From Hymenopus coronatus (taxonomy: Eukaryota; Arthropoda; Insecta; Mantodea; Hymenopodidae): a stretch of 64,000 bases of DNA. The stretch spans positions 11,546,001-11,610,000 of the forward strand of contig CM060896.1 in the NCBI GenBank assembly GCA_030762935.1, written 5' to 3'. Shown in pieces: positions 20,888-52,169 of this stretch (the first letter of the stretch is position 1; each line of letters opens with the position of its first letter). Both the position numbers and the translations under genes were made by a program. The notes beneath the pieces were generated by a model that worked only from the letters and a program-made list of their open reading frames with translations, had not been told where the DNA came from and ran no database searches.

Positions 20888-20966
20888 AGTAATAATAGTG
20901 GTAGTAGTAGTATTAGTATTAGTAGTAGTAGTAGTAGTAGTAGTAGTAGAAGTAGTATTGGTAGTC

Positions 20967-21006
<40 letters not shown>

Positions 21007-21045
21007 GAGTAGTAGTAGTAGTGGTAGTAGTAGTAGTAGTGGTAG

Positions 21046-21096
<51 letters not shown>

Positions 21097-21119
21097 TAGT
21101 GGTAGTAGTGGTAGTAGTG

Positions 21120-21177
<58 letters not shown>

Positions 21178-21317
21178 TAGTGGTAGTGGTAGTGGTAGGA
21201 GTAGTAGTAGTAGTAGTGGTAGTAGTAGCAGTAGTGGTAGTAGTGGTAGGAGTAGTGGTAGTAGTAGTAGTAGTAGTAGTGGTAGTAGTGGTAGGAGTAG
21301 GAGTAGTAGTAGTAGTG

Positions 21318-21390
<73 letters not shown>

Positions 21391-21446
21391 TAGTGGTAGG
21401 AGTAGTAGTAGTGGTAGTAGTAGTGGTAGGAGTAGTAGTAGTAGTG

Positions 21447-21492
<46 letters not shown>

Positions 21493-21579
21493 GAGTAGTA
21501 GTAGTGGTAGTAGTGGTAGTAGTAGTGGTAGGAGTAGTAGTAGTAGTGGTAGGAGTAGTAGTAGTAGTAGTAGTGGTAG

Positions 21580-21630
<51 letters not shown>

Positions 21631-21818
21631 GAGTAGTAGTAGTGGTAGTAGTGGTAGTAGTAGTGGTAGGAGTAGTAGTAGTAGTGGTAGGAGTAGTAGT
21701 AGTAGTAGTAGTGGTAGGAGTAGTAGTAGTAGTAGTGGTAGTAGTGGTAGTAGTAGTGGTAGTAGTAGTAGTGGTAGGAGTAGTAGTAGTAGTGGTAGGA
21801 GTAGTAGTAGTAGTAGTG

Positions 21819-21867
<49 letters not shown>

Positions 21868-21890
21868 GAGTAGTAGTAGTAGTAGTAGTG

Positions 21891-21936
<46 letters not shown>

Positions 21937-22020
21937 GAGTAGTAGTAGTAGTGGTAGGAGTAGTAGTAGTAGTAGTGGTAGTAGTAGTGGTAGGAGTAGT
22001 AGTAGTAGTAGTAGTGGTAG

Positions 22021-22107
<87 letters not shown>

Positions 22108-22200
22108 GAGTAGTAGTAGTAGTAGTAGTGGTAGGAGTAGTAGTAGTAGTAGTGGTAGTAGTAGTAGTGGTAGGAGTAGTAGTAGTAGTAGTAGTGGTAG

Positions 22201-22245
<45 letters not shown>

Positions 22246-22326
22246 GAGTAGTAGTAGTAGTAGTAGTGGTAGGAGTAGTAGTAGTAGTAGTGGTAGGAGT
22301 AGTAGTAGTAGTAGTAGTAGTGGTAG

Positions 22327-22371
<45 letters not shown>

Positions 22372-22458
22372 GAGTAGTAGTAGTGGTAGTAGTGGTAGTA
22401 GTAGTGGTAGGAGTAGTAGTAGTAGTGGTAGGAGTAGTAGTAGTAGTAGTAGTGGTAG

Positions 22459-22518
<60 letters not shown>

Positions 22519-22614
22519 GAGTAGTAGTAGTAGTGGTAGGAGTAGTAGTAGTAGTAGTAGTGGTAGGAGTAGTAGTAGTAGTGGTAGGAGTAGTAGTAGT
22601 AGTAGTAGTGGTAG

Positions 22615-22659
<45 letters not shown>

Positions 22660-22755
22660 GAGTAGTAGTAGTAGTGGTAGGAGTAGTAGTAGTAGTAGTA
22701 GTGGTAGGAGTAGTAGTAGTAGTGGTAGGAGTAGTAGTAGTAGTAGTAGTGGTAG

Positions 22756-22803
<48 letters not shown>

Positions 22804-22842
22804 TAGTGGTAGGAGTAGTAGTAGTGGTAGTAGTAGTGGTAG

Positions 22843-22884
<42 letters not shown>

Positions 22885-23034
22885 TAGTAGTAGTGGTAGG
22901 AGTAGTAGTAGTAGTGGTAGTAGTAGTAGTGGTAGGAGTAGTAGTAGTAGTAGTAGTGGTAGGAGTAGTAGTGGTAGGAGTAGTAGTAGTAGTAGTAGTA
23001 GTGGTAGGAGTAGTAGTAGTAGTAGTAGTGGTAG

Positions 23035-23076
<42 letters not shown>

Positions 23077-23205
23077 GAGTAGTAGTAGTAGTGGTAGGAG
23101 TAGTAGTAGTAGTAGTAGTAGTGGTAGGAGTAGTAGTAGTAGTGGTAGGAGTAGTAGTAGTAGTAGTGGTAGGAGTAGTAGTGGTAGTAGTAGTAGTAGT
23201 GGTAG

Positions 23206-23244
<39 letters not shown>

Positions 23245-23303
23245 TAGTGGTAGTAGTGGTAGTAGTGGTAGTAGTGGTAGTAGTGGTAGTAGTGGTAGTA
23301 GTG

Positions 23304-23352
<49 letters not shown>

Positions 23353-23392
23353 TAGTGGTAGGAGTAGTAGTAGTGGTAGTAGTAGTGGTAGG

Positions 23393-23424
<32 letters not shown>

Positions 23425-23456
23425 TAGTAGTAGTGGTAGGAGTAGTAGTAGTAGTG

Positions 23457-23499
<43 letters not shown>

Positions 23500-23586
23500 G
23501 AGTAGTAGTAGTGGTAGTAGTGGTAGTAGTAGTGGTAGGAGTAGTAGTAGTAGTGGTAGGAGTAGTAGTAGTAGTAGTAGTGGTAG

Positions 23587-23628
<42 letters not shown>

Positions 23629-23787
23629 GAGTAGTAGTAGTAGTGGTAGGAGTAGTAGTAGTAGTGGTAGGAGTAGTAGTAGTAGTAGTAGTGGTAGGAG
23701 TAGTAGTAGTAGTGGTAGGAGTAGTAGTAGTAGTGGTAGGAGTAGTAGTAGTAGTGGTAGGAGTAGTAGTAGTAGTAGTAGTGGTAG

Positions 23788-23841
<54 letters not shown>

Positions 23842-23964
23842 GAGTAGTAGTAGTGGTAGTAGTGGTAGTAGTAGTGGTAGGAGTAGTAGTAGTAGTGGTA
23901 GTAGTAGTAGTAGTGGTAGTAGTAGTGGTAGGAGTAGTAGTAGTAGTGGTAGTAGTAGTGGTAG

Positions 23965-24000
<36 letters not shown>

Positions 24001-24051
24001 GAGTAGTAGTAGTGGTAGTAGTAGTAGTAGTAGTGGTAGTAGTAGTGGTAG

Positions 24052-24093
<42 letters not shown>

Positions 24094-24128
24094 GAGTAGT
24101 AGTGGTAGGAGTAGTAGTAGTAGTAGTG

Positions 24129-24162
<34 letters not shown>

Positions 24163-24186
24163 GAGTAGTAGTAGTAGTAGTGGTAG

Positions 24187-24237
<51 letters not shown>

Positions 24238-24281
24238 AAGTAGTATTGGTAGTCGTAGTAGTAGTAGTAGTAGTAATATCG

Positions 24282-24348
<67 letters not shown>

Positions 24349-24365
24349 AAGTAGTATTGGTAGTC

Positions 24366-24404
<39 letters not shown>

Positions 24405-24494
24405 ATATCGGTAGTAGTAGTAGTAGTAGAAGTAGTATTGGTAGTCGTAGTAGTAGTAGTAGTAGTGGTAGTAGTAGTAGTAGTAGTAATATCG

Positions 24495-24530
<36 letters not shown>

Positions 24531-24539
24531 TTGGTAGTC

Positions 24540-24582
<43 letters not shown>

Positions 24583-24593
24583 TAGTAATATCG

Positions 24594-24626
<33 letters not shown>

Positions 24627-24635
24627 TTGGTAGTC

Positions 24636-24666
<31 letters not shown>

Positions 24667-25398
24667 TAGTAATATCGGTAGTAGTAGTAGTAGTAGTAGT
24701 ATTGGTAGTAGCAGTATCGGTAGTAGTAATATCGGTAGTAGTAGTATTGGTAGTAGTAGTATCGGTAGTAGTATTGGTAGTAGTAATATCGGTAGTAGTA
24801 TTGGTAGTAGTATCGGTAGTAGTAGTAGTATTGGTAGTAGTAGTGGTAGTAGTAGTATTGGTAGTAGTAATATTACTAGCTGTGGTACTAGTATTGGTAG
24901 TAGTAGTATTGGTAGTAGTAATATTACTAGTGGTGGTACTAGTATTGGTAGTAGTAGTATTGGTAGTAGTAATATTACTAGTGGTGGTACTAGTATTGGT
25001 AGTAGTAATATTACTAGTGGTGGTACTAGTATTGGTAGTAGTAGTATTGGTAGTAGTAATATTACTAGTGGTGGTACTAGTATTGGTAGTAGTAGTATTG
25101 GTAGTAGTAATATTACTAGTGGTGGTACTAGTATTGGTAGTAGTAGTATTCGTAGTAGTAATATTACTAGCGGTGGTACTAGTATTGGTAGTAGTAGTAT
25201 TGGTAGTAGTAATATTACTAGTGGTGGTAGTAGTAGTATTGGTAGTAGTAGTATTACTAGTGGTAGTAGTATTAGTAGTAGTAGTAGTAGTGGTAGTAGT
25301 ATTAGTAGTAGTAGTAGTAGTAGTAGTGGTAGTAGTAGCAGTAGTAGTAGTGATAGTAGTGGTAGTAGTATTAGTAGTGGTGGTAGTAGTAGTGGTAG
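20888..25398. repeat. 4.5-kb (AGT)n trinucleotide array
   Basis: A continuous array of AGT/GTA triplets with GGT, GGA, ATT, AAT and ACT variants. Three reading frames stay open for more than 1,500 codons (poly-Thr and poly-Leu on minus, poly-Val on plus), which means that across 4.5 kb there is no length change that is not a multiple of three. The left and middle part is built from AGT blocks punctuated by GTGGTAGGAGT. The right part (24240-25260) contains older variants and a 51-bp higher-order unit. The giant frames are a property of the triplet repeat, not evidence of a gene. Confidence 0.97.
24866..25255. repeat. 51-bp higher-order repeat inside the (AGT)n array
   Basis: Units of the form TATTACTAGTGGTGGTACTA + GTATTGGTAGTAGTAGTATT + GGTAGTAGTAA recur with spacing 51, 51, 36 and 51 bp (TATTACTAG at 24871, 24922, 24973, 25009 and 25060). 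Both lengths are multiples of three, so the triplet phase is kept. Confidence 0.85.
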
Positions 25399-25525
25399 TT
25401 TTTTTTTTTCTGTAGGGGAAACATCTTTCAAAGACAACATTCTTTACGGCGAGATGGATTTTCACCAACTATAAAAACCCCTACCTCTACACTACTCATT
25501 TTGGAACTGCGGACAGGCATAAACA

Positions 25526-28376
25526 TCAAAATGGTAGCTGTGCATCATTACTCCTATCTTCTTTTTCCTTCGTCTCCAATATTATCTTACTTAGTCTTTT
25601 CGCTTCTTCCCAGGCCAACCTATTATTTATCGTCGTTGAGATCATATTCTCAGGTGTATGTACCAGTCCTAATTTATTATTTACTTCCTTTCTTATTTCC
25701 TTCCATTTCTCGCAGTGGAATACTGTGTGCTCTACAGAGTCCTCAGCTGGGCAATACCTACAATTACTATTGTCTACTTTTCCCATCTTTAATGCATAGT
25801 TTTGGAATCTGCCATGCCCTGTTAAAACTTGTGTCAGATAATAGTCCATCTGGCGGAATTTGCAATTTACCCACTTCACTATATCTGGAATCAGTCTCTT
25901 TGTCCATTGACCATCCAAAGTTGTTTCATCCCATCTTTTTTGCCATTCTTTTATCATTTCCGCTCGAATAGTTACTTTATGGAAGCGCCGGTTTTCCGGC
26001 ATTTCTTCATGTATGAGTTGTCTCTCTTTTATCTGTAGGTCAATCGGTAGTATCCCTGCAATCACCTGTAGTGCTCTATTAGAGACGGTGCGATATGAAC
26101 AAATCACCCTGAGCAACATCTTTCTTTGTGTCCTCTCCATGTCCATTGCGTACTTTTTCCTCTTTAGCGCAATACCCCATACAGATGAGGCATATAACAA
26201 AATAGAATTGACAGCACTATATATGATCTGCCGTTTTATCGGCCTCGGTCCTCCAATATTGGGCATTACACGTACTAGTTGGGATATTTTTCTTCCGCTT
26301 TCTTTAGTACCATTTTAATATGGGCCCCAAATGTGGTGTATTCATCAATAACACCGAAATATCTTACTGCCTTAGTAGGTGTAATTTTTGTCCCTCGTAG
26401 CATAAAACTTATATTATGTTTCCGCCGGAGTCCTTTCATTATTACAGACTCTGTCTTTTGCGGTGCCAACTCCATTTTGTTTCGTTGTATCCACCTGTCG
26501 ATGCGTCTTAGTGACTCATTTACTCTATAGACGAGCTCCTCTTCCGCCGATACTACCAGTGCTAAATCATCGGCAAAGGCGATTGTTGTTGCCCCTGCTG
26601 TCAGTTGCACTTCCAAGACTCCATCATACAATATGTTCCACAAAGTTGGCCCTAGTATTGAACCTTGTGGCACACCTGCAGTTATTTCCATCTCTTCATT
26701 ATCTGTTTGAATACTCCTTCCTTCAAAATAAGATATTATAACCTGAATCAAATATTCAGGAATAGTTCTTTTAAGCGCATCTATTTTATAGCCCCACATC
26801 GCCGTGTTGAATGCGTTTTTCACATCCAATGTTATTAATGCTACCCACTTATCTTCAGCATCTTTCTTGATCTGAATCACCGCTTCAATTGCTTGAATAG
26901 TGGACTTCCCTTTTCTAAAGCCGTACTGACGATTGCTTAATCCTCCTCCTCTTTCTATTTCTTTTTCTAACCTTAAGCGTATCAAACTTTCATAGAGCTT
27001 GCTAACTGTATTCAAAAGACATAGGGGCCTATGTGCTGATGGATCTTGTGGGGATTTACCCCTTTTCATCAGAAAGACTACCTTAGCTACTTTCATTTTT
27101 CTGGAAAATTTTGTTTTACTATCAACTCATTCAATATGTTTAAAATACATTCTGGCGCAACTTTAGCCATACCCTTTATCGCCTCTGGAGGAATTCTATC
27201 AATTCCTGGCGATTTCCCTACTTTTATATTTTTTACTACTGCCCTCAGCTCCTCCATCGTAAATATATCCACTTTAAAACTTGGACATAGCGACTCCATC
27301 CTGCCTTCTCTATGTGGAAATAGTACTTCGGCAATAGTTCTTTTCTTTTCTCTGGTTAAGCAAACCGGCATTCTGTTTACTAGTCACTCAGTCACGATTT
27401 TATAACCTGTACCCCAAATATCATTATTCACAACATTTGCCACTGTCTTCTCTTCGATTGCTGGATAAGACATCTTAATTCTTTCCTGCACATCTTGTAG
27501 TATTGCCTGAGTTGTTCAATCTCCTCAATCTCTATGTTCTTTTTATTAGACCTGGTTAACAACCTTCTCTTCTCAATACATTTACGCCTAGCTTCGCTTA
27601 TTTCTTTCGTCCACCAATAGGACACTCTGTTCTTTATCCCGTTACTATTTTGTATCTGACTAATGGCACAGGTTTCTTGCAAGATAGTAATCAATTCATC
27701 CGCATTTTCCGGTTCCTTGTTACCTTTAACCTTCCAGTCTAACAGTATTTCAAATACTTCCCAATCATAGGCTACTTTGGTTTTCTCAATAATTCTCTCT
27801 TTACATCCTCTTGCCCCTTTGAGCTCAAAATAGATAAATCTATGATCACTGAGGGTTTCCTCATCTAGCACTTGCCATTCCTCTATTTGCTTTGCAATTC
27901 GCTGTGTAGCACACGTTACATCTATATAAGATTCACAGCTGGCGCTAACAAATGTGGGCACCTCCCCTGTGTTTAGAACAAAATCTAGCGAAGCCAACCA
28001 CTCTGTCCAGTATCTACCTCTGCGATCTGTGCTGGGTGAACCCCATAGTGGCGATTTAATATTTAGATCTCCCAAGATGACACTCTCTCCTCCAGCATCT
28101 TTATGATCTTGCATCAACTTATCTGTATCGCTCTTGAACTCTTCAAAGGGTATGTTCGGTGAACTGTAACAGTTGCCACTTCTTTAAACCAAGGTATGCA
28201 TGTCCATCTTCTGCTCTTATAGTGGATACTTCCAAGTTCTTATTTATAATTAAAATAGCCACATCCACTCGTTTGTCCTTTATCCAATTACTACCGGCCA
28301 CATGTTCTTTATTTGGCTCTCTTGCCACTATAATATCGGCTGACTTATCTACTGATGCAACCATTAACAATATCAT
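25526..28376 (-). pseudogene. R1-clade ORF2: endonuclease and reverse transcriptase, frameshifted
   Basis: ORF2 nicks the target and reverse-transcribes the element RNA there. Domains from N to C: (1) APE-type endonuclease over 28376-27428, with EPNKEHVAGSNWIKDKRVD in the first piece, then ILGDLN (residues 14-19) and the catalytic LSDH (89-92) in the piece 28117-27428; (2) reverse transcriptase over 27371-26275, with YGFRKGKST, LDVKNAF, AGVPQGSILGP and the active-site box FADDLAL (residues 174-180 of the piece starting 27096); (3) a C-terminal region over 26266-25526 with a CX2CX7HX4C finger (C169, C172, H180, C185), typical of R1-clade proteins. Frame changes near 28130, 27420-27370, 27095 and 26270 inactivate it. 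The order gag, EN, RT, CCHC and the RT/EN wording fit the R1 clade better than Jockey or RTE. Confidence 0.93.
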
Positions 28377-28439
28377 GACTGTACTTGGACCTCATCATGT
28401 TTACATGAATTGTGCGTATGGTCTGTGTAACCAGCTGCA

Positions 28440-29073
28440 TTATGTTTTATTTGCCCATCTTCCCCTAGTCTCCAATACCAATTTCCTAAATGTAGGACAT
28501 TTCATCTCATCAAATCTATGTCCTTCTACTTGACATGTACTACAATAAGCATTCCTTGAACACTCTTTTACATTGTGCCCTGTCTCTCCACATTTAAGGC
28601 AAGCCTTTGTCCTATTTACATCTTTTTTACATTGGTACGCTCTATGGCCTAAATCTAGACATCTATAACATCTTAGAATAGGCACCCTTTCCCGCACTTG
28701 ACAGATTGTCCAGCCTATCTGCATTTTCCTATTTTTATTACCATTGGTAGAGTTATGGTAGCATTATTGTTTCCAAATCTACCTAGCCTAAAACTATTTA
28801 CCTCAATTTCCGTCTCTTTTTCTCCGGTTTCCTTGCTGGGTGCCATTTTTAACGCATCTTCTCCAACAGATGGATTCACCCCATACAATAGCACAATAGC
28901 TACATTGCTCTTTGAGGTCACTTCTAAATTTTGAATATTTTTCCTCTGCAACTCTTGCTTCAGTATACTTGCTTTACCTTCTCCTATGGTAAGCAATAGG
29001 TCTTCCTTGCCAATCTTTTTAATGGTTTTAATTGTTACTCCGATCTTATCCACATCTACTTCCTGCTTAACAG
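28440..29073 (-). pseudogene. R1-clade ORF1 (gag-like) remnant with three zinc knuckles
   Basis: ORF1 proteins of this clade bind the element RNA. Two overlapping frames are seen. 29053-28715 gives about 113 residues of ordinary, charged gag-like sequence with no ATG start; the frame enters from the array. 28724-28440 carries three CCHC knuckles: C19-C22-H27-C32, C42-C45-H50-C55 and C61-C64-H69-C76 of that frame (CYRCLDLGHRAYQC, CLKCGETGHNVKEC, CSTCQVEGHRFDEMKC). A frameshift near 28720 separates them. Complete ORF1 proteins are usually several hundred residues, so the N-terminal part is missing. Confidence 0.88.
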
Positions 29074-29738
29074 TAATGGTAGTAGTAGTGGTAGTAGTAT
29101 TATTATTAGTGGTAGTAGTATTATTGTTAGTAGTAGTAGTATTGGTAGTGGTAGTAGTGTTGGTAATAGCAGTATTGGTAGTAATAGTAGTAGTGGTGGT
29201 AGTAGTAGTAGTGGTAGTAGCAGTATTGGTAGTAATAGTAGTAGTGGTAGTAGTAGTAGTGGTAGTAATAGTATTGGTAGTAGCAGTATTGGTAGTAATA
29301 GTAGTAGTGGTAGTAGTAGTGGTAGTAGCAGTATTGGTAGCAGTATTGGTAGTAGTAGTGATAATAGTAGTATTGGTAGTAGTAGTGGTAGTTGTATTGG
29401 TAGTTTTAATATTGGTAGTATTAGTAGTGGTAGTAGTATTGGTAATAGTAGTAGTGGTAGTAGCAGTATTGGTAGTATTAGTAGTGGTAGCAGTATTGGT
29501 AGTAGTGGTAGTAGTATTGGTGGTAGTAGTAGTATTGTTAGTAGTATTGGCAGTACTAGTATTGGTAGTGGTAGTAGTATTGGTAGTAGTAGTAGTGGTA
29601 GTAGTAGTGGTGGTAGTATTGGTAGTAGTATTGGTAGTAGTAGAAGTAGTAGTATTGGTAGTAGTAGTGGTAGTATTAGTAGTAGTGGTAGTAGTATTGG
29701 TAGTAGTAGTAGTGGTAGTATTAGTAGTGGTAGTAGTA
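29074..29738. repeat. (AGT)n array, right part, with ATT/AAT/GGT variants
   Basis: Continuation of the trinucleotide array on the other side of the R1-clade insertion, also without any non-triplet indel (one plus frame is open for about 250 codons). It is richer in ATT, AAT and AGC variants than the left block, like the zone next to the left junction. Confidence 0.95.
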
Positions 29739-31590
29739 TAGTTGTGTTGTTGATGGCAGTAGTATAGTTGTGTTGTTGATGGCAGTAGTATAGTTGTGTT
29801 GTTGATGGCAGTAGTATAGTTGTGTTGATGGCAGTAGTACAGTTGTGTTATTGATGGCAGTAGTATAGTTGTGTTGATGGCAGTAGTATAGTTGTGTTGA
29901 TGGCAGTAGTACAGTTGTGTTGTTGATGGCAGTAGTATAGTTGTGTTGATGGCAGTAGTACAGTTGTGTTATTGATGGCAGTAGTATAGTTGTGTTATTG
30001 ATGGCAGTAGTATAGTTGTGTTGATGGCAGTAGTATAGTTGTGTTGTTGATGGCAGTAGTATAGTTGTGTTGTTGATGGCAGTAGTATAGTTGTGTTGAT
30101 GGCAGTAGTACAGTTGTGTTGTTGATGGCAGTAGTACAGTTGTGTTGATGGCAGTAGTACAGTTGTGTTGTTGATGGCAGTAGTACAGTTGTGTTGTTGA
30201 TGGCAGTAGTATAGTTGTGTTGTTGATGGCAGTAGTATAGTTGTGTTGATGGCAGTAGTACAGTTGTGTTGTTGATGGCAGTAGTATAGTTGTGTTGATG
30301 GCAGTAGTACAGTTGTGTTGTTGATGGCAGTAGTACAGTTGTGTTGTTGATGGCAGTAGTATAGTTGTGTTGTTGATGGCAGTAGTACATTTGTGTTGTT
30401 GATGGCAGTAGTATAGTTGTGTTGATGGCAGTAGTACATTTGTGTTGTTGATGGCAGTAGTACAGTTGTGCTGTTGATGGCAGTGTATAGTTGTGTTATT
30501 GATGGCAGTAGTACAGTTGTGTTGTTGATGGCAGTAGTACAGCTGTGGTTTTGATGGCAGTAGTACAGCTGTGGTGTTGATGGCAGTAGTATAGCTGTGG
30601 TGTTGATGGCTGTCGTATAGTTGTGTTGATGGCAGTAGTACAGCTGTGGTGTTGATGGCAGTAGTACATCTGTTGTGTTGATGGCAGTAGTATAGCTGTG
30701 GTGTTGATGGCAGTAGTACAGCTATGGTGTTGATGGCAGTAGTACAGCTGTGGTGTTGATGGAGTAGTACAGCTGTGGTATTGATGGCAGTAGTACATCT
30801 GTGGTGTTGATGGCAGTAGTACAGATGTGATGTTGATGACAGTAGTACAGCTGTGATGTTGATGGCAGTAGTATAGCTGTGGTGTTGATGGCAGTAGTAT
30901 AGTTGTGTTGATGGCAGTAGTACAGTTGTTTTGATGGCAGTGGTACAGCTGTAGTGTTGATGGCAGTAGGAGAGCTGTGATTTTGATGGCGGTAGTATAG
31001 TTGTGTTTATGGCAGTAGTACAGCTGTGGTGTTGATGGCAGTAGTACATCTGTGGTGTTGATGGCAGTAGTACAGCTGTGGCGTTGATGGCAGTAGTATA
31101 GCTGTGTTGATGGCAGTAGTACAGTTGTGTTGATGGCAGTAGTACAGTTGTGTTGATGGCAGCAGTACAGTTGTGTTGATGGCAGCAGTACAGTTGTGTT
31201 GATGGCAGTAGTACAGTTGTGTTGATGGTAGTAGTACATTTGTGTTGATGGCAGCAGTACAGTTGTGTTGATGGCAGTAGTAGATTTGTGTTGATGGCAG
31301 CAGTACAGTTGTGTTGATGGCAGTAGTACAGTTGTGTTGATGGTAGTAGTAGATTTGCGTTGATGGCAGCAGTACAGTTGTGTTGATGGTAGTAGTAGAT
31401 TTGTGTTGATGGCAGCAGTACAGTTGTGTTGATGGCAGCAGTACAGTTGTGTTGATGGCAGTAGTACAGTTGTGTTGATGGTAGTAGTAGATTTGTGTTG
31501 ATGGCAGCAGTACAGTTGTGTTGGTGGCAGTAGTACATTTGTGTTGATGGCAGCAGTACATTTGTGTTGATGGCAGTAGTATATTTTTGT
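29739..31590. repeat. 24/27-bp minisatellite derived from or fused to the (AGT)n array
   Basis: Units GTTGTGTTGATGGCAGTAGT + ATA or ACA (24 bp), with a longer 27-bp form containing GTTGTTGATG. From about 30540 the variants GCTGTGGTGTTG appear, and from 31100 GGCAGCAGTACA. Every unit keeps a GCAGTAGTA core that continues the triplet register of the neighbouring array. The minus-strand open frame of about 600 codons is explained by the multiple-of-three unit lengths. Confidence 0.93.
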
Positions 31591-32138
31591 TGTCATCAGT
31601 TAAATTTCTTGGCATCCATATCGAAACTGGCTTGGGTTGGCAGACTCATATTAACTACATATCAAGTAAAATATATAAAAGCTTATTTATTATTAAGATC
31701 ACTTAGACATGTGTCTCCCTCTTGTTAAAGTGTATTATACTTATGGTACTCTGTTGTGGGGCAGTCACACTTCTGCCAGTCAGTTATTCATTCTTCAGGG
31801 AGAAATCTCTACGTATCATATTTGGAGCTTCACCAAGAACTCACTGTAACCACTTGGTATACTGACCTTGTCTTCAATGTTTGTTCTGGTTTCCCTTCTA
31901 TCGTTAAAAAAAATAGCAACCTTTTCTCAATATGTTCTTCTGTCCAGAATTATCGCACTTGAAAATGCTCTGATATGTATACTAACACATGTAAATATAG
32001 TAAAACCCTTAACAGTTTCTCATGCATGTCATTTAAAATTTTCAACACCTTATCTCAGAATATCAAGACTCTTCCTTTTTTAAACTTTAAGAGGAGGATC
32101 AAAACAATCTTGAAGGCAAATCCTCTTTATAGCATTAC

Positions 32139-39949: not shown

Positions 39950-40612
39950 AGTACGTGGGAGTGTCTGTGGACAGCATAGCTCAAAAACAAAAACACCGCT
40001 ACATGCCAAACTTTGGTATTTTCCAAGAATGCAACACGAAGATTTTCAAGAAAATGCCCCCATCATAAACTACTCTTATATGGAACATTTTTTAAATGTT
40101 TTATTTTCTCAAAAATGGCTCTAACGATTTTGATTAAAATAGCACACATTAAAACCATTTCCATCACAAATAATATGTGTATCTTGAATTTTCTTGGAAT
40201 AGCTTCTGAAAACCTGTTCATTCTGAATGAATTTCGCTGTGTTTGCGTAACTGGTAAACCATAAGACAGACAAAAACTTACTACACAAAAATGTAGATCT
40301 CGTTAAAACACACAATTTATGTCATATCGTGGAGTTGACCATTTTTGAGATATTCCTTGTTATTAGTTTTAGTTTTAAAATACTTACTTTTCTCATACGG
40401 GAACTTGTCAGCTCCTGGCCACGCAAAGAAACGGATTTCAATCCCATAGCAACCACATTTTAAAACATTTGGCTGTCAGTTTAGTCTAGTGTATTCCCTT
40501 ATTTGCCTTGTAATTACAAGAAAATAAGTAATAAGACCGTTTCTGTTAATGTTTATCTCGATTAGCATGAAGTAGATAGAAAATAAGCTTATTAACCATA
40601 ATTTGTTACAGT
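39950..40612 (-). mobile_element. PE repeat copy lacking both termini
   Basis: Reverse copy from GTACGTGGGAGTGTCTGTGG to CATAATTTGTTACAG. The palindrome and the last 40 bp of the 5' end are missing. Confidence 0.85.
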
Positions 40613-40892
40613 GTGGAAATATGGTAATGGTGTCCAAGAATGTTGAACTATGTAGAAGGACTTTAAAGTTTATTGCGATTAATGGACAGCCCTGGTAGTT
40701 AGCGGTGTGCGACACAAATAGGAAGCAGGATGTGTGCCATCACACTTCACCAACACTCCTTCGGTAACAATGCGCTCTACTGTATCCATATTCTGCCATT
40801 TACACAACTTTTGCCTTTGGAGGTCCAATTTTAGCAACTCCGTTGTATAACCTTGTTAACTCATACATGTCTTCGTTTCTTTAACAAAAAAA
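40613..40892. other. Unassigned sequence
   Basis: No recognisable gene or repeat. Confidence 0.35.
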
Positions 40893-40973
40893 TCTTATGT
40901 GTTACACTCACATGAATTTCTCTAGTTGTTCCACAGAGAGACTTCTTACAAAATATTTTTCTTCTTTCAAAAC
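40893..40973 (+). mobile_element. PE repeat copy, segment 1 (5' end), host of multiple insertions
   Basis: Starts TCTTATGTGTTACACTCACA and is subfamily B. It is interrupted at 40974 by a hAT element and continues at 45630, 45924, 47191 and 47740. All segments together form a single PE copy read in order. Confidence 0.85.
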
Positions 40974-41088
40974 CAGTGATGGCCAACTAGTAATGCACTG
41001 AGGGCCAGAATACGATAAGGACCTTACTTGAGGGCCAGCAAAATTAATAGTATGACTATATTAAAAATAAAATAACAGCAATGGCAAC

Positions 41089-44000
41089 TTAGGAGCACAT
41101 TATTTTAATATCATTACATGCACAGTGAAGGAACAAGCATTGTTTTTTTTTACTAAGAACAATAAGGTTTGTAAAATCTTTTACAAGAGATTTAAAATCC
41201 ACTTGCAGTTCTGATGTTGCAATTTTAAGAATAAGAGATAACATTGAATCAGTTTTTCTGTTTTTGGACTTTGATTTCACTAGTTGCATATCAGAGAAAG
41301 CAGTTTCACATATGTAAGTGCCACCAAATATGGAAGTGAGGTTTAAAGCCTAGTTTCATAGCAGAGATGGCAGTTTCATAGCAGAGAAGGCAGTTTCATA
41401 GCAGAGAAGGCAGTTTCACATATGTAAGTGCCACCAAATATGGAAGTGAGGTTTAAAGCCCAGTTTCATAACAGAGAAGGCAGTTTCACATATGTAAGAG
41501 CCGCCAAATATGGAAGTGAGGTTTAAAGCCTAGTTTCATATCAGAGAAGGCAGTTTCATATCAGAGAAGGCAGTTTCATATCAGAGAAGGCAGTTTCACA
41601 TATGTAAGTGCCACCAAATATGGAAGTGAGGTTTAAAGCCCAGTTTCATATCAGAGAAGGCAGTTTCACATATGTAAGTGCCACCAAATATGGAAGTGAG
41701 GTTTAAAGCCCAGTTTCATATCAGAGAAGGCAGTTTCACATATGTAAGTGCCACCAAATATGGAAGTGAGGTTTCAAGCCCAGTTTCATATCAGAGAAGG
41801 CAGTTTCATATCAGAGAAGGCAGTTTCACATATGTAAGTGCCACCAAATATGGAAGTGAGGTTTAAAGCCCAGTTTCATTTCAGAGAAAGCAGTTTCACA
41901 TATGTAAGTGCCACCAAATATGGAAGTGAGGTTTAAAGCCCAGTTTCATATCAGAGAAGGCAGTTTCATATATGTAATTGTCACCAAATATGGAAGTGAG
42001 GTTTAAAACCTAGTTTCATATCAGAGAAGGCAGTTTCATATCAGAGAAGGCAGTTTCATAGCAGAGAAGGCAGTTTCACATATGTAAGTGCCACCAAATA
42101 TGGAAGTGAGGTTTAAAGCCCAGTTTCATATCAGAGAAGGCAGTTTCACATATGTAAGTGCCACCAAATATGGAAGTGAGGTTTAAAGCCCAGTTTCATA
42201 TCAGAGAAGGCAGTTTCACATATGTAAGTGCCACCAAATATGGAAGTGAGGTTTCAAGCCCAGTTTCATATCAGAGAAGGCAGTTTCATATCAGAGAAGG
42301 CAGTTTCACATATGTAAGTGCCACCAAATATGGAAGTGAGGTTTAAAGCCCAGTTTCATTTCAGAGAAAGCAGTTTCACATATGTAAGTGCCACCAAATA
42401 TGGAAGTGAGGTTTAAAGCCCAGTTTCATATCAGAGAAGGCAGTTTCATATATGTAATTGTCACCAAATATGGAAGTGAGGTTTAAAACCTAGTTTCATA
42501 TCAGAGAAGACAGTTTCACATATGTAAGTGCCACCAAATATGGAAGTGAGGTTTAAAGCCCAGTTTCATATCAGAGAAGGCAGTTTCATATCAGAGAAGG
42601 CAGTTTCACATATGTAAGAGCCGCCAAATATGGAAGTGAGGTTTAAAGCCCAGTTTCATATCAGAGAAGGCACTTTCATATCAGAGAAGGCAGTTTCATA
42701 TCAGAGAAGGCAGTTTCATAGCAGAGAAGGCAGTTTCACATATGTAAGTGCCACCAAATATGGAAGTGAGGTTTAAAGCCCAGTTTCATATCAGAGAAGG
42801 CAGTTTCACATATGTAAGTGCCACCAAATATGGAAGTGAGGTTTAAAGCCCAGTTTCATATCAGAGAAGGCAGTTTCACATATGTAAGAGCCGCCAAATA
42901 TGGAAGTGAGGTTTAAAGCCCAGTTTCACATCAGAGAAGAGAGTTTCACATATGTAAGAGCCGCCAAATATGGAAGTGAGGTTTAAAGCCCAGTTTCATA
43001 TCAGAAGGGAATTTCACATATGTAAGTGCCACCAAATATGGAAGTGAGGTTTAAAGCCCAGTTTCATATCAGAGAAGGCAGTTTCACATATGTAAGTGCC
43101 ACCAAATATGGAAGTGAGGTTTAAAGCCCAGTTTCATATCAGAGAAGGCACTTTCATATCAGAGAAGGCAGTTTCATATCAGAGAAAGCAGTTTCACATA
43201 TGTAAGTGCCACCAAATATGGAAGTGAGGTTTAAAGTCCAGTTTCATATCAGAGAAGGCAGTTTCATATCAGAGAAAGCAGTTTCACATATGTAAGTGCC
43301 ACCAAATATGGAAGTGAGGTTTAAAGCCCAGTTTCATATCAGAGAAGGCAGTTTCATATCAGAGAAGGCAGTTTCACATATGTAAGAGCCGCCAAATATG
43401 GAAGTGAGGTTTAAAGCCCAGTTTCATATCAGACAAGGCAGTTTCACATATGTAAGTGCCACCAAATATGGAAGTGAGGTTTAAAGCCCAGTTTCATATC
43501 AGAGAAGGCAGTTCCACATATGTAAGAGCCGCCAAATATGGAAGTGAGGTTTAAAGCCCAGTTTCATATCAGAGAAGGCAGTTCCACATATGTAAGTGCC
43601 ACCAAATATGGAAGTGAGGTTTAAAGCCCAGTTTCATATCAGAGAAGGCAGTTTCACATATGTAAGTGCCACCAAATATGGAAGTGAGGTTTAAAGCCCA
43701 GTTTCATATCAGAGAAGGCAGTTTCACATATGTAAGTGCCACCAAATATGGAAGTGAGGTTTAAAGCCCAGTTTCATATCAGAGAAGGCAGTTTCACATA
43801 CGTAAGTGCCACCAAATATGGAAGTGAGGTTTAAAGCCCAGTTTCATATCAGAGAAGGCAGTTTCATATCAGGGAAGGCAGTTTCACATACGTAAGTGCC
43901 ACCAAATATGGAAGTGAGGTTTAAAGCCCAGTTTCATATCAGAGAAGGCAGTTTCATATCAGGGAAGGCAGTTTCACATACGTAAGTGCCACCAAATATG

Positions 44001-45560
44001 GAAGTGAGGTTTAAAGCCCAGTTTCATATCAGAGAAGACAGTTTCACATATGTAAGAGCCACCAAATATGTAAGTGAGGTTTAAAGCCCAGTTTCATATC
44101 AGAGAAGGCAGTTTCACATATGTAAGTGCCAGCAAATATGTAAGTGAGGTTTAAAGCCTAGTTTCATAGCAGAGAAGGCAGTTTCACATATGTAAGTGCC
44201 AACAAATATGGAAGTGAGGTTTAAAGCCCAGTTTCATAGCAGAGAAGGCAGTTTCATATCAGAGAAGGCAGTTTCACATACGTAAGTGCCACCAAATATG
44301 GAAGTGAGGTTTAAAGCCCAGTTTCATATCAGAGAAGGCAGTTTCACATATGTAAGTGCTACCAAATATGGAAGTGAGGTTTAAAGCCCAGTTTCATATC
44401 AGAGAAGGCAGTTTCATATCAGAGAAGGCAGTTTCACATACGTAAGTGCCACCAAATATGGAAGTGAGGTTTAAAGCCCAGTTTCATATCAGAGAAGGCA
44501 GTTTCATATCAGGGAAGGCAGTTTCACATACGTAAGTGCCACCAAATATGGAAGTGAGGTTTAAAGCCCAGTTTCATATCAGAGAAGGCAGTTTCACATA
44601 CGTAAGTGCCACCAAATATGGAAGTGAGGTTTAAAGCCCAGTTTCATATCAGAGAAGACAGTTTCACATATGTAAGAGCCACCAAATATGTAAGTGAGGT
44701 TTAAAGCCCAGTTTCATATCAGAGAAGGCAGTTTCACATATGTAAGTGCCAGCAAATATGTAAGTGAGCTTTAAAGCCCAGTTTCATATCAGAGAAGGCA
44801 GTTTCACATATGTAAGTGCCACCAAATATGTAAGTGAGGTTTAAAGCCTAGTTTCTTAGCAGAGAAGGCAGTTTCACATATGTAAGTGCCACCAAATATG
44901 GAAGTGAGGTTTAAAGCCCAGTTTCATAGCAGAGAAGGCAGTTTCACATATGTAAGAGCCACCAAATATGTAAGTGAGGTTTAAAGCCCAGTTTCATATC
45001 AGAGAAGGCAGTTTCACATATGTAAGAGCCACCAAATATGTAAGTGAGGTTTAAAGCCCAGTTTCATATCAGAGAAGGCAGTTTCACATATGTAAGTGCC
45101 AGCAAATATGTAAGTGAGGTTTAAAGCCCAGTTTCATATCAGAGAAGGCAGTTTCACATATGTAAGAGCCACCAAATATGTAAGTGAGGTTTAAAGCCCA
45201 GTTTCATATCAGAGAAAGCAGTTTCACATATGTAAGTGCCGCCAAATATGGAAGTGAGGTTTAAAGCCCAGTTTCATATCAGAGAAGGCAGTTTCACATA
45301 TGTAAGTGCCGCCAAATATGGAAGTGAGGTTTAAAGCCCAGTTTCTAAGATGTGGAAAACGTTCCTTTGAAACGAGTTTACAAAAATCAACACCAGTTGC
45401 CTCTGCTGTTTGAAGAGATGAATCACATTGGAGCTCACACAGTTCTATCTGTAGTTCCCCGGGCTGGCCCTCTACTTAACATCTCATGGCATTGTTGAAA
45501 AGTTCCATTTGTGATGGAAACACTTCAAACTCTTGAAATCCACCAACATATTCTAAAATG
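41089..45560 (-). pseudogene. hAT transposase C-terminal remnant, split by a satellite made from its own sequence
   Basis: hAT transposases are RNase H-like enzymes whose C-terminal region holds a conserved dimerisation block. On the minus strand upstream of the array the frame reads GELQIELCELQCDSSLQ, then VSKERFPHLRNWALNLTSIF and GGTYICETAFSDM. Downstream of the array the same block is followed in frame by QLVKSKSKNRKTDSMLSLIL, then KIATSELQVDFKSL. This wording matches the conserved hAT motif (FG..Y.CE..FS.MK...SK.R..LTD) and the helix after it. With a single repeat unit the frame is continuous across the array; with the array it shifts, because the unit is 70 bp. One stop lies in the upstream part (after FNNAMRC). 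The N-terminal BED and catalytic regions are absent. Confidence 0.85.
41287..45345. repeat. 70-bp satellite array derived from hAT coding sequence
   Basis: About 52 units of 70 bp (CAGTTTCACATATGTAAGTG + CCACCAAATATGGAAGTGAG + GTTTAAAGCCCAGTTTCATA + TCAGAGAAGG) with about 20 extra 20-bp subunits (CAGTTTCATATCAGAGAAGG). On the minus strand each unit encodes, in one of the three frames, SIFGGTYICETAFSDM, the hAT dimerisation motif. Subfamilies occupy zones: GAGCCGCC units at left and centre, and TACGTAAGTG and ATATGTAAGTGAGG units toward the right. A 480-bp block (six 70-bp and three 20-bp units) is duplicated around 41646-42125 and 42126-42605. Confidence 0.97.
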
Positions 45561-45629
45561 AGATGTGTTCAGGAAGTTATAAAAACCAATAAATCATACA
45601 CTTATTCGCGGACCGCCGTTGTTCTAAAC

Positions 45630-45710
45630 CTTACTAATAAAGCTGCATTAGCAGAATGTACTTATTACACAGTTCCTTATAAGTAGAAGGAAAGTAAAGG
45701 AATGCGCTAT
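45630..45710 (+). mobile_element. PE repeat copy, segment 2
   Basis: Continues the copy of 40893 after the hAT element: GCATTAGCAGAATGTACTTA and CTTATAAGTAGAAGGAAAGT. It is interrupted again by a short retroposon. Confidence 0.8.
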
Positions 45711-45923
45711 AAAATGGAAATGTCTTTAACTGCTGTGGTTCTCTGCGTCCCACTCTATACTGGGCGTGAAACACCGGTCTAATTAATTTTGCTCAGAGGC
45801 ATCTTGTCAGGCTTGAAGTTCTTTTACGTGCCGTAAATCTACGACACGGGCCCAACAGCTTTACTTCCCTTCCGAAGGAACCTATGTTAAGGATTTTTAC
45901 ACCCATCGTCCTCCGCCGGGTTT
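45711..45923. mobile_element. Short retroposon (SINE-like, family S4) with 10-bp TSD
   Basis: A 213-bp insertion flanked by perfect AATGCGCTAT repeats (45701-45710 and 45924-45933). It contains TTTTACGTGCCGTAAATCTA, CGACACGGGCCCAACAGC and CTTCCCTTCCGAAGGAACC. No RNA polymerase III boxes were recognised, so it could be a 5'-truncated SINE; orientation is uncertain. Confidence 0.75.
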
Positions 45924-46121
45924 AATGCGCTATGCTAAATTGATTGTCAAATGTTTTAAAAGCTATCGTTATGGGATTGTCATTGCAATTCGCTTCTTTC
46001 CTTGACCAGAAGTAGAACAAAAGAAATAGGAACACTTCCTGTCTCAGAAAAGTAAAAAATAAATAAATAAAAAAAAAACGTAAAGGACAAAAATTGTGCG
46101 TTTTGAGGAGATTACATTTCT
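45924..46121 (+). mobile_element. PE repeat copy, segment 3
   Basis: Continues segment 2: GTCAAATGTTTTAAAAGCTA, ATTGTCATTGCAATTCGCTT and TGCGTTTTGAGGAGATTACA. It is then split by a reverse PE copy at 46122. Confidence 0.82.
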
Positions 46122-46263
46122 ACTTTTTCTATACGTACTAAGTACATAGTGTATAGAGAAGGTATTGCACGCCACCCAAAAATTCAATACCGAGATTTCA
46201 ACGGAAATATATGTTTTAGGGTCCCCTGTATCAAAAAAAAAAAAAAGCATTTTCACAAAAAGG

Positions 46264-48860: not shown

Positions 48861-49389
48861 GTTTATATCCAAACATTGGCCAATAAAACAGGTTTTCGAA
48901 AATCATTCCTCTGATGTTGGTTTTACAATGCATGATTCAACTTATTCCCTAAAGAGGAAAGTTTAGCAAGGGATGAATGAATGAAGCAATACTATTTCTG
49001 CTCGCAACGAGCCACGCCACACGACGAGAAGAGCAGTAGATGAAATTGGATTCCAGTACGAAGAGACGGAATGTCTGCAGGCAGCGAGGAAACAATAGTT
49101 CCCGGACATAATAATGTCTTATTGCTTGGTGACTTCTCCGTTTCCTTCGCGAGATCACATTCATGCTGGTCATTCCCATTTCGGCTTTCATTAAACATTT
49201 TACACTCTAGGATGGTCCGTACCTGACACTACTACCATAGACTCCTATGTACCAACAGATAAACCCTTAGAAAATCCAAGAAATTACACTCGTACCATCG
49301 ACAAAAGTTTGTATTTAGTAACCGTCGTCTCTTACTAGACGGCACTTAAAGTGTCGGCTATATCCATCACGTAGTTTCGTTGCCTTAGG
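48861..49389. other. Unassigned sequence, probably including the mariner 5' end
   Basis: No recognisable gene. The two overlapping minus-strand frames at 48949-49198 have no family resemblance that could be recognised. The 5' TIR of the mariner at 49390 was looked for here and not found. Confidence 0.35.
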
Positions 49390-50691
49390 CGATTGAATCA
49401 ACAATCTTGTGCTTCTTTAGAAAGATGTAAAGAAAACGAGTTTCGTGTGGTGATCAAACAATTCTATTTAAAATACTTACCGAAAGAGATACAAGTCAAG
49501 TTGGATGAAGCTAATGTCGCATCTGCTCCTGCGTTTGCAACAATTTACAATTGGATAAACGAATTTAAACGTGGCCATACATCCACAAATGAAGTGACTT
49601 CCTCAGATATTATTGACAAAATCCAGGATATGGTTTGGAGTGATCGACGAATCAAAGTTCGCAAAATAGTAGAGTCCACAGACTTATCACAAAGTACAGT
49701 GTTCTCAATTTTGCACCAAAAATTAGGTCGGACAAAGGTCTCGGCAAGATCGGTGCTTCGTTTGCTCTGAATGGAGAATAAACACAATCGTGTGATCGAT
49801 TCGGAAGCTGGTTTGGCACTTTTCTGCGTCGATACATAACTGTGGATGAAACATGCCTATTTCGGAGGAAGTCACTTCTACTGGACGTCCGGAACGATGT
49901 CCATCATTTGTGGATGTACGGCCACGTTTTAATTCATTCGTCCAATTGTAAGCTATTGCAAACGCAGGAGCAGTTGCGCCATGAACTTATTCCAACTCTG
50001 TTTTTCTCTCTTTCGGTGTTAAGACTTATAAGTAGGTGTTTCATCACCGCACGAAACTCGTTTTTTACCATCTTTCAGTACTACACTCAAGAGACAAAAG
50101 TACAGTCCAAACAGTGGCTTTTTAAAGGCGATCCAGCTCCGAAGAAGGCAAAGGTAGTGAGTGAGTGATCTGCAGACAAGGTGATGGCTCGTTTTTTTTT
50201 CTTTTTCTTTTTTTTTTCTTTCTTTTTTTTTTTGGGGATGCACGTGGAATCATCTTAATTGATTGCTTACAGAAAGGACGAACGACAAATGGAGAGTATT
50301 ATGCATCGTTATTGCTCCGGATGAACGGACAAATCAAGAAAAAACGCCCTCGGCATGCAAAGAAAAATATTCTCTTCCATCAAGACAGTGCAAGACTGAA
50401 CACCTGCGCAGTTTCGATAGTGAAAATTGTAGAATTACGGTTCGAATTATTACAACATCCACCGTATTCAGCAGATTTGACCCCCCATGACTTCCTTTTT
50501 ATTCCCAAACTTGAAAAAGTGGCTCGGCGAAAAATGAATCACGTCTAACGAAGAGGTCATCTCCGAAACAGATGCCTATTTTGAGGATCTTCCAAAATCC
50601 TACTTTTTGGAACGCTTAAAACAGTTGGAGAAAACGCTGGGAAAAGTGTATCGAGCTAAAAGGAGATTATGTTGAAAATATTTTATATATA
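49390..50691 (+). mobile_element. Rearranged mariner relic, left part, host of a DD41D element
   Basis: Plus-strand mariner coding sequence with an internal inverted duplication: 49920-50100 is the reverse complement of 49417-49566 (for example CTCCTGCGTTTGCAA in both). A pyrimidine run lies at 50191-50236. The 3' end (AAGAACTTATTGAACGCCCC then TCGTA) is found at 52210-52234, on the other side of the nested element. Confidence 0.8.
49394..50640 (+). pseudogene. Mariner (DD34D) transposase pseudogene
   Basis: The N-terminal 125 residues (49393-49770) are open and show a helix-turn-helix region: FRVVIKQFYLKYLPKEIQVK, then ATIYNWINEFKRGHTS and LSQSTVFSILHQKLGRTKVS. The segment 49771-50170 is scrambled by an inverted copy of the N-terminal part, removing the first acidic residue. 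The C-terminal half (50250-50548) keeps FHQDSARLNTCAVSIVKIVE and PPYSADLTPHDFLF, with 34 residues between the two acidic positions as in DD34D mariners; the usual HDNA is QDSA here. A stop follows MNHV. Non-functional. Confidence 0.88.
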
Positions 50692-52169
50692 CAGGATGTT
50701 TCAAAAATACGGGGCATAATTTCAGGTATGTATTTCCCACATGTAGACAATCAAATTAGTTCATTATAACATGTGTCCGGAAATGCTTCATTTCCGAGTT
50801 ATGGCCTGCACAACATTGAAATTCACTGGAACGTTTTTCTTTCCGCAGGTTGTTGCCATTACAGAAGATGTTCAAAATGTCCACCTCCTGCTTGAATACA
50901 GACCTCATATCGATGTCTCATTGACCTGCGAACACGATCCCAAACTCCAGGAGTATTGCGTATGTCCTCACAACTTGCCACAATTCGATTCCGAAGGGAT
51001 TCCAAATCCGGCACCGGAGACGAATAAACCAATGATTTTAAATGGCCCCACAAGTAGAAATCGAGAGGGTTCAGATCAGGTGAGCGTGGAGGCCAAGCAA
51101 TTGGGCCACCTCTACCTATCCATCGATCAGGAAACCTTCGATCCAAGTACCGGTGAGCCGTAAGACTAAAGTGTGGAGGAGTGCCATCATGCAAGAAGTG
51201 AATGTGTTAATGATTGATCAGTGGAGTGTCTTCGAAAACGTCAGGTATGGTGTTTTCCAGGAAGTTTGTGTACGCCTGCCCCGTAAGTCTATTTACAAGC
51301 ACATGGGGTCCAACTAATCGATCACCAATGATACCGGCCCACATGTTGAGGGAGAACCGCACCTGGTGATGGGATACAACAGTTGCACGTGGGTTTTCGT
51401 GTGACCATACATGCTGATTGTGGAAATTTCTTATGCCATCTCTTGTGAACTGTGCTTCGTCTGTAAATAATACGACGGCAGAAAAGTTCGGATTTACACC
51501 ACACTGCTGCAAGAACCACTGACAGAACCTAACTCGTGCAGGGTAATCTGCTGGTGACAGGGCTTGTACACGTTGCAAATGATAAGGATACAATTGATAC
51601 TCGTTCAACAGTCTCCAGACAGCCGTATGAGGAACATTGACTTGCAACGCTAACCGTCGTGTGCTGATAGAAGGAGTCCTGTCCACAGCCTCCAGAATCT
51701 CGTCCTTCACTTCTGCAGTTGTAGATCTTGGTCGTCCCCTTCCCAAACCAGGAGAGGTGAATGTTCCATACTCGCACAGACGGGAATGGAGGCGTACAAA
51801 TGTCTTCCGATCTGGACATTGTCGCTGTGGGTACCTCTCCTGGTACAAACGACGAGCCAGCGCAGCATTGCCGTCCGCCTTACCGTACATGAAGTGTATC
51901 TCTGCCAGCTCTTGATTTGAATACATGTCGCACAGTCTTAACGCCTAAAGAACACTGAATGTAACCTTCCTCAGAATGAACTATCAGAGCGCCTTCCTAA
52001 TGTCTCCTTTGACGGCAAAGACCTGCGGAAAGAAAAACGTTCCAGTGAATTTCAATGTTGTAAAGGCCATAACTCGGAAATGAAGCATTTCCGGACATGA
52101 GCTATTTTGATTGTCTTCGTGTGGGAAATACATACCTCAAATTATGCCCCGTATTTTTGAAACATCCCA
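50692..52169 (-). mobile_element. DD41D Tc1/mariner-type transposon, nearly intact
   Basis: A 1,478-bp element with long terminal inverted repeats (about 130-160 bp): left ACAGGATGTTTCAAAAATAC and GGGGCATAATTTCAGGTATG, right end the complement. It is bounded by TA at 50690-50691 and 52170-52171. Removal rejoins ...ATTTTATATATA with TATATACCAAAAAAAATG of the host mariner 3' end. The two TIRs are very similar, and the transposase is broken by only one visible stop, so this is among the youngest elements in the window. Confidence 0.92.
50859..51926 (-). pseudogene. DD41D transposase with a single in-frame stop
   Basis: About 355 codons in one frame from ATG at 51926, broken only by TAA at 51207-51209 (codon 240). 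An N-terminal helix-turn-helix pair lies at residues 1-115 (MYSNQELAEIHFMYGKADGN at the start, GRGRPRS linker at about 62-68, ISTRRLALQVNVPHTAVWRL as the second helix-turn-helix). Catalytic residues: D156 in VLFTDEAQF, D247 in LHDGTPPHFS and D289 in SPDLNPLDFYLW. Forty-one residues separate the last two, defining the DD41D group of the IS630/Tc1/mariner superfamily. The length is typical. A suppressed stop or recent inactivation is possible; the stop lies between the first and second catalytic residues, so the short product would lack them. Confidence 0.92.

Follow-up and report, generated by a model that had tools for sequence, protein, structure and literature searches.

We analysed a 64,000-nt stretch of Hymenopus coronatus contig CM060896.1 (the window; all positions below are window positions), which holds a copy of a hAT transposon with a long tandem array inside what is left of its transposase coding sequence. 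The parts of this copy are as follows.

40974..45623, minus strand: non-autonomous, internally deleted hAT copy holding the array, recognised by its left terminal repeat, its target-site duplication and empty-site relatives
45346..45555, minus strand: transposase C-terminal coding remnant upstream of the array, including MELFNN...FPHL and a stop at 45476-45478; outer end approximate
41288..45345, minus strand: head-to-tail tandem array of 4058 bp, with 52 L modules (50 bp) and 73 S modules (20 bp)
45276..45345, minus strand: first L+S unit, at the upstream edge of the array; one unit plus flanking bases encodes about RNWALNLTSIFGGTYICETAFSDM
41288..41307, minus strand: last S module, at the downstream edge of the array, GAAACTGCTTTCTCTGATAT, then GCAACTAGTG
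41167..41286, minus strand: transposase C-terminal coding remnant downstream of the array, QLVKSKSKNRKTDSM...DFTN

The array was detected with Tandem Repeats Finder, then cut at GAAACTG and tiled into modules. On the minus strand the L module reads GAAACTGGGCTTTAAACC...ACATATGT and the S module GAAACTGCCTTCTCTGATAT, the consensus of each opening with GAAACTG; in the tiling 72 S modules measured 20 bp and one measured 18 bp. The 52 runs of S comprised 37 single, 10 double, 4 triple and 1 fourfold, so that 21 S modules were in excess of the 52 L+S units. A first-pass annotation of this DNA had counted about 52 units of 70 bp, which holds for the L modules and leaves the additional S modules out. 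Its attribution of the 20-bp subunits to an internal GAAACTG repeat agrees with the tiling, in which the surplus 20-bp modules begin and end at GAAACTG.

Transposase origin of the repeat unit

When bridged by one L+S unit, the two flanks read ...FPHLRNWALNLTSIFGGTYICETAFSDMQLVKSKSKN... in frame. This bridged reading aligned without gaps across both edges of the array with the protein P0001 (78% over 65 residues), and did so as well with P0004 (509 amino acids) and with P0005 and P0006, both named general transcription factor II-I repeat domain-containing protein 2-like, from Clavelina; P0002 matched its upstream part only. In the alignment P0004 was 61% and P0001 71% identical to the bridged reading. 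The Dimer_Tnp_hAT domain (PF05699) spanned the join with E 0.002 and 18.3 bits, below the curated cut-off of 21.4, and scored above that cut-off on P0004 (28.3 bits) and P0001 (28.2 bits); the C-terminal dimerisation region of hAT transposases is thus recognised through these relatives, the decayed window reading itself falling below the cut-off. Because a single L+S unit restores the frame between the flanks and gives the arrangement of the longer hAT proteins, the array, judged from these alignments, descends from transposase coding sequence, part of Dimer_Tnp_hAT.

These results uphold the central proposals of the first-pass annotation, that the flanks join in frame through exactly one unit (which is also the state of 26 of the 29 sister copies described below) and that a satellite derived from hAT transposase code sits in its parent element, as both the alignments of the relatives and the hAT flanks at the arrays indicate. 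Two contrary outcomes had been conceived, full-length hAT relatives devoid of the segment and an older satellite into which hAT sequence had inserted. The longer relatives contain the segment, and the repeat lies within hAT at all 11 array loci read, the unit search having scored 39 of 417 candidates. Against solved structures, the bridged fragment had no match at E <= 1. When a 20-base word from the unit was searched, viral contigs gave no match and a Ruminococcus contig one exact match, which we took as chance.

Single-unit copies and early loss of the transposase

With the C-side flank as query we obtained 612 first-look candidates and scored 40 of them, namely the window copy and 39 others (42 matches were listed, two being second pieces of copies). 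We read 29 of the 39 (L022-L050) and counted the unit by edge-to-edge alignment. The hAT family is dispersed in the genome; one unit was present in 26 of the 29 sister copies, and an array in none of them. The unit was whole in 22 of these 26 and partly lost in the other four, by 13 bp in L023, L032 and L047 and by 18 bp in L042. The 13-bp loss lies between AAAC repeats within the unit and is the reverse of the growth seen in arrays. Of the other three, L040 combined a whole unit with a partial piece about 390 bp farther on, L037 had lost 64 bp of the unit stretch, and in L039 this stretch was split by an insert. GAAACT was kept at exactly offsets 0, 50 and 70 in 9 of 28 copies, and two more kept all three with small indel shifts; in the remaining copies at least one of the three was mutated. 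These offsets are the boundaries of L, of S and of the unit.

The transposase match started at P0004 residue 353 or later in all 29 sister copies (at 369 in 17), judged with about 1.2 kb of further upstream sequence in view, and at residue 358 or later in all 11 array copies (at 369 in seven). Array and single-unit copies alike are therefore without roughly the first 350-370 of 509 residues, and a complete transposase was found in none of the 29 sister or 11 array copies. The same stop is common to 9 of the 11 array copies, which are all the array copies that hold that stretch. From the common late match start and the common stop, we conclude that the element lost most of its transposase before these copies spread, and that the sampled family is an internally deleted, non-autonomous hAT. 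The earlier view that the expansion destroyed the gene is ruled out on the same grounds: the single-unit copies are equally truncated, and no working transposase was killed in the window copy. The array is predicted to be without coding function, given that 70 is not a multiple of 3 and that the copy is already without most of the transposase. In two single-unit copies, L046 and L025, no stop interrupts the frame through much of the dimerisation region (163 and 111 codons, respectively), and this frame could conceivably encode a repressor-like fragment.

A series of arrays at one point of the element

Searching the 3.13-Gb genome with a query of three units produced 179 matches; since 39 of 417 candidates were scored, the number of arrays found is a lower bound. 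We read the window array and ten further loci. A genome-wide search for the 70-bp unit, proposed as a check by the first-pass annotation, thus yielded at least 11 array loci with about 2 to 104 units; the single array treated there exists as described and is one member of a series. All 11 arrays occupy the same internal point between like hAT flanks, starting after ...CACATCTTA and stopping before ...AAACTAGTGAAATCAAAG, or mutated forms of these, with the downstream motif absent in L019.

The array loci are named below with the group (C17, C18, C19, C7 or C5) to which they belong. The C19 copies carry 2 (L018), 3 (L016), 3 (L017), 7 (L015) and 18 (L014) L modules, and the longer arrays 28 (L019), 52 (window), 54 (L010), 56 (L011) and 104 (L012), while L020 has one full unit and a partial second. 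Surplus S modules were clear only in the window array and L010 (C17), and the C19 loci have in common a mostly 19-bp S. The head-to-tail repeats, with some homogenisation within the locus (not clear among the C19 loci), are those of a satellite, and 'minisatellite-like array' is as fair a name; the longest array, among the candidates scored, was 7.3 kb.

The L019 array, at about C7:144017000-144019000, is very uniform, with 1.3% between units and a 10-unit higher-order repeat of about 684 bp. L012 lies with L013 at about C18:7142307-7149586. Array copies that are most closely related share a contig (C17, C18, C19), at distances of 0.9 to 5.5 Mb, and L020 has its partner, the single-unit copy L028, 48 kb away on C5. 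It looks as if the element had hopped or been copied locally. No array locus of the 11 is farther than about 13 Mb from a contig end. Both of these placements were noticed after the fact.

We also examined the ends of the elements. The left terminal repeat of the window copy, CAGTGATGGCCAAC, starts at 40974, and its right end apparently is without about the last 10 bp of the terminal repeat present in other copies. The right boundary was set by the target-site duplication and by empty-site relatives. Reading the right end as an imperfect inverted repeat was abandoned in view of the longer right ends in other copies. The target site consists of the following.

40966..40973, unstranded: left target-site duplication, TTCAAAAC
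45624..45631, unstranded: right target-site duplication, TTCTAAAC, 7 of 8 identical to the left

Related empty sites hold a single 8-mer, e.g. TTCTACAC, where the filled site holds two. Among the array loci, 8-bp target-site duplications as in hAT elements matched at 8 of 8 positions in L016, L017 and L019 and at 7 of 8 in the window copy and L015. They were weaker in L014 (6 of 8) and in L010 (6 of 8, only with a one-base shift). Short terminal inverted repeats, again as in hAT elements, were CAGTGATGGCC-like on the left and GGCCATCACTG-like on the right in L010, L014, L015 and L017, and were present in more decayed form in L019.

Probable recombination between built-in short repeats

At 10 of the 11 array loci the commonest internal junction joins the bases preceding the downstream motif to the bases following the upstream motif; the exception, L020, has a different, 40-bp duplication. 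This junction is TATGAAACTGGG in the C17 and C18 arrays. The five C19 arrays combine CAAACTAG, or a form close to it, as downstream motif with an upstream edge that retains GAAACTGGGC. Internal junctions read TATCAAACT in all five, with some TATGAAACT in L015, and by its letters the C19 junction is the recombinant that would be expected from exchange inside AAACT. L019 (C7) carries the C form too. The surplus 20-bp modules of the two C17 arrays are bounded by the GAAACT motif at both ends. The edge similarities pointed out by the first-pass annotation are real, and short direct repeats at the edges fit slippage or unequal exchange.

Because the GAAACT motifs at 0, 50 and 70 in single-unit copies coincide with both module lengths, recombination or slippage between GAAACT repeats, followed by unequal exchange, is the likely cause of the arrays. 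The first duplication would have taken place between the motifs at offsets 0 and 70. Units would then have been gained and lost after insertion by unequal exchange or gene conversion, as suggested by a unit order not beyond chance in two sister pairs together with block duplications inside arrays (below). The 20-bp module would have been multiplied, in the lineage of C17, through exchange involving the motifs at 50 and 70. Taken as a whole, it is very probable that this non-autonomous hAT family carries a GAAACT-bounded 70-bp unit and that the window array arose by exchange or slippage between these repeats and grew in place.

Repair of the gaps left by transposon excision makes internal deletions. 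The first duplication could accordingly have been made during repair of a hAT excision break, with the copying strand slipping between GAAACT repeats, and the family is indeed internally deleted and includes copies with deletions in the same stretch. Nothing sets this course apart from ordinary slippage or unequal exchange, however, and we hold it to be a rather unlikely one.

Probable growth in place and the number of births

About 260 of 327 units had their nearest unit within their own locus. The longest identical ordered run between the window array and L010 was 2 units (30 shuffles: mean 1.97, largest 2), and between L011 and L012 it was 1 unit (shuffles: mean 1.4). Blocks had been copied inside loci: L012 contains an identical run of 44 units, and L019 one of 14. 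Mostly same-locus nearest units, no unit order beyond chance and block duplications within arrays together favour growth after insertion. Arrays of this family probably originate at short repeats that the gene already contains, and expand there in place.

The exact 44-unit run of L012 recurs at a distance of 45 units (about 3150 bp), which may be a recent block duplication or an assembly fault.

We weighed these results against an array that grew once in a founder and then spread ready-made by hAT transposition. The sister pairs lend this some support. The window array and L010 have 52 and 54 L modules, both with surplus S, and their units differ by 4.7% between loci compared with 4.5 and 4.1% within them; for L011 and L012 (56 and 104) the values are 7.0% between and 7.2 and 5.9% within, with 11 polymorphisms in common. 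The compared flanks outside the element are not collinear in either pair, so that the members look like separate insertions, and a single clade of ten arrays without L020 was not rejected (approximately unbiased (AU) test, p 0.32). Against such transport, the unit order of the two sister pairs is no more alike than chance, copies with 2, 3, 3, 7 and 18 units stand in one C19 group, and a single clade of all 11 arrays was rejected (AU p 0.0118). Unit order gives no support to the array as collinear cargo, the C17 and C18 pairs being otherwise compatible with transport, and we regard a ready-made array as a doubtful explanation of the series.

Several observations count against birth at GAAACT repeats followed by growth in place. 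Some 6-mer occurs at least three times in 2641 of 5000 first-order Markov sequences of like length and composition; the motif triple by itself is therefore weak, and its force lies in the coincidence with the module boundaries. A fourth GAAACT 35 bp upstream is not used as a boundary. In an edge-divergence test of unequal exchange on six arrays, edge units were not excess-divergent, with no edge effect in the window array, L010, L012, L014 and L019 and the reverse in L011. Slippage, unequal exchange and repair of a transposition break are indistinguishable here. Unit polymorphisms are held in common between loci (11 in L011 and L012, four in the window array and L010, and 1-5 in four other pairs), and on the strength of the 11, several units may have been present in the parental copies of at least the C18 pair. 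C19 is not homogenised by locus, L014 differing by 5.6% inside and by 4.8% from L018, and L017 differs by 10.7% inside. Finally, the target-site duplication is weak at 2 of the 11 array loci and none is convincing at four (L011, L012, L018, L020).

The number of births was addressed with a tree of 40 copies, including the 11 array copies, and 200 bootstrap trees; 22 of its 37 inner branches were weak. Array state changed five times on this tree and 5-6 times over the bootstraps, and a single change was found in 0 of 200 bootstrap trees. The arrays formed the groups C17 (support 100/98), C18 (100/99), C19 (86/90), C7 and C5, with L020 (C5) paired with the single-unit copy S028 (98/94), 48 kb away. 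C17 and C18 as one clade were not rejected (AU p 0.445), and unit consensus sequences link the two. Two births of arrays are likely. There is about an even chance that arrays were born separately in at least three lineages (C17/C18, C19 and C7, with the other, 40-bp duplication in C5), the three built-in repeats acting as fixed breakpoints. If so, copies with anything from one unit to 104, all at the same place in the element, would form a natural replicate series.

That the window array is an assembly artefact of a shorter repeat is very improbable: L012 does hold its 44-unit exact block twice, as assemblers can produce, but the 52 units of the window array take 30 distinct forms, with a longest repeated run of five units and no long exact block, and there are eleven loci with graded lengths. 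Least credible of all is an older, free-standing satellite captured by hAT, as has been proposed for another element, Xenopus miDNA4, since conservation of the unit's residues extends to transposase relatives from elsewhere, 26 of 29 sister copies have just one unit and all 11 array loci read have hAT flanks, so that capture is ruled out and the repeat is not older than, and foreign to, its element as the miDNA4 model has it.

Comparison with known systems

The closest parallel is miDNA4 itself (Scalvenzi and Pollet, via PMC12628747 and PMC9659126), a non-autonomous Xenopus element of the Tc1/mariner type that has a satellite in its interior. As summarised there, it too is a non-autonomous DNA transposon with one monomer or an array of variable length and short direct repeats as the proposed cause; unlike the proposed capture of an earlier repeat, the present case involves transposase code in a hAT, with single-unit copies at hand. 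In Tetris and TIR-220 of Drosophila virilis, internal tandem repeats became building blocks of kilobase arrays, according to PMC4079207. Tetris resembles our family in having internal tandem repeats in a non-autonomous DNA transposon, and differs in being a foldback element, described with repeats in its terminal inverted repeats and not in coding sequence. Dispersed satellite-like arrays of the Pacific oyster are described as the central repeats of non-autonomous Cg_HINE elements (PMC7492417), which are Helentrons and not hAT; the abstract gives no coding origin of the repeats.

Satellite monomers related to the coding sequence of mobile elements, like ours, have been reported in chicken (HinfI, from CR1), Phodopus (PROsat, from LINE-1 ORF II) and rye (E900, from a GAG-like frame), as reviewed in PMC9659126; these come from retrotransposons and not from a DNA transposase, and section 2.2 of that review gives no in-element copy-number series. 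Tandem amplification by unequal sister-chromatid exchange, with short repeats that flank the unit and mediate its amplification as proposed here, is treated in PMC8831618, which, so far as it describes its cases, concerns gene and element clusters and not an array inside one transposon family. Among the titles and abstracts of the open-access literature searched, none reported a satellite of hAT-transposase origin together with a copy-number series. Arrays inside other DNA transposons and satellites from retrotransposon code are thus known, and their combination with hAT transposase code, single-unit copies and intermediates was not met in these sources.

Once its parents and intermediates have vanished, the first doubling of a satellite unit is difficult to observe. 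Here one, 2, 3, 7, 18 and 50 to 104 units coexist at the same point of one mobile element, which makes the series unusually complete, and the short repeats that likely set the breakpoints remain readable. The rate, direction and recurrence of satellite birth would become measurable.

Insertion site and neighbouring sequence

The hAT copy of the window is inserted into an older host repeat, whose two parts are as follows.

40009..40970, unstranded: left part of the host repeat, target of the hAT insertion, with many copies in the window
45646..46250, unstranded: right part of the host repeat, with empty-site relatives near 14.2, 18.7, 39.9 and 58.3 kb of the window

These parts belong to an interspersed repeat of about 1 to 1.5 kb that is present across the window in dozens of pieces with about 70-90% identity. 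Two long stretches of simple or near-simple repeats (20834-25474 and 28715-31650) are open in several frames, up to 1544 codons, and between them, at about 25526-28763, lies an element with a reverse transcriptase that resembles a long interspersed nuclear element (LINE), its type being assigned by eye. In a reverse-transcriptase search the one organism named was Exocentrus adspersus, at 48%. At 49375-51944 there are remnants in both orientations that by eye resemble mariner/Tc1-type transposases.

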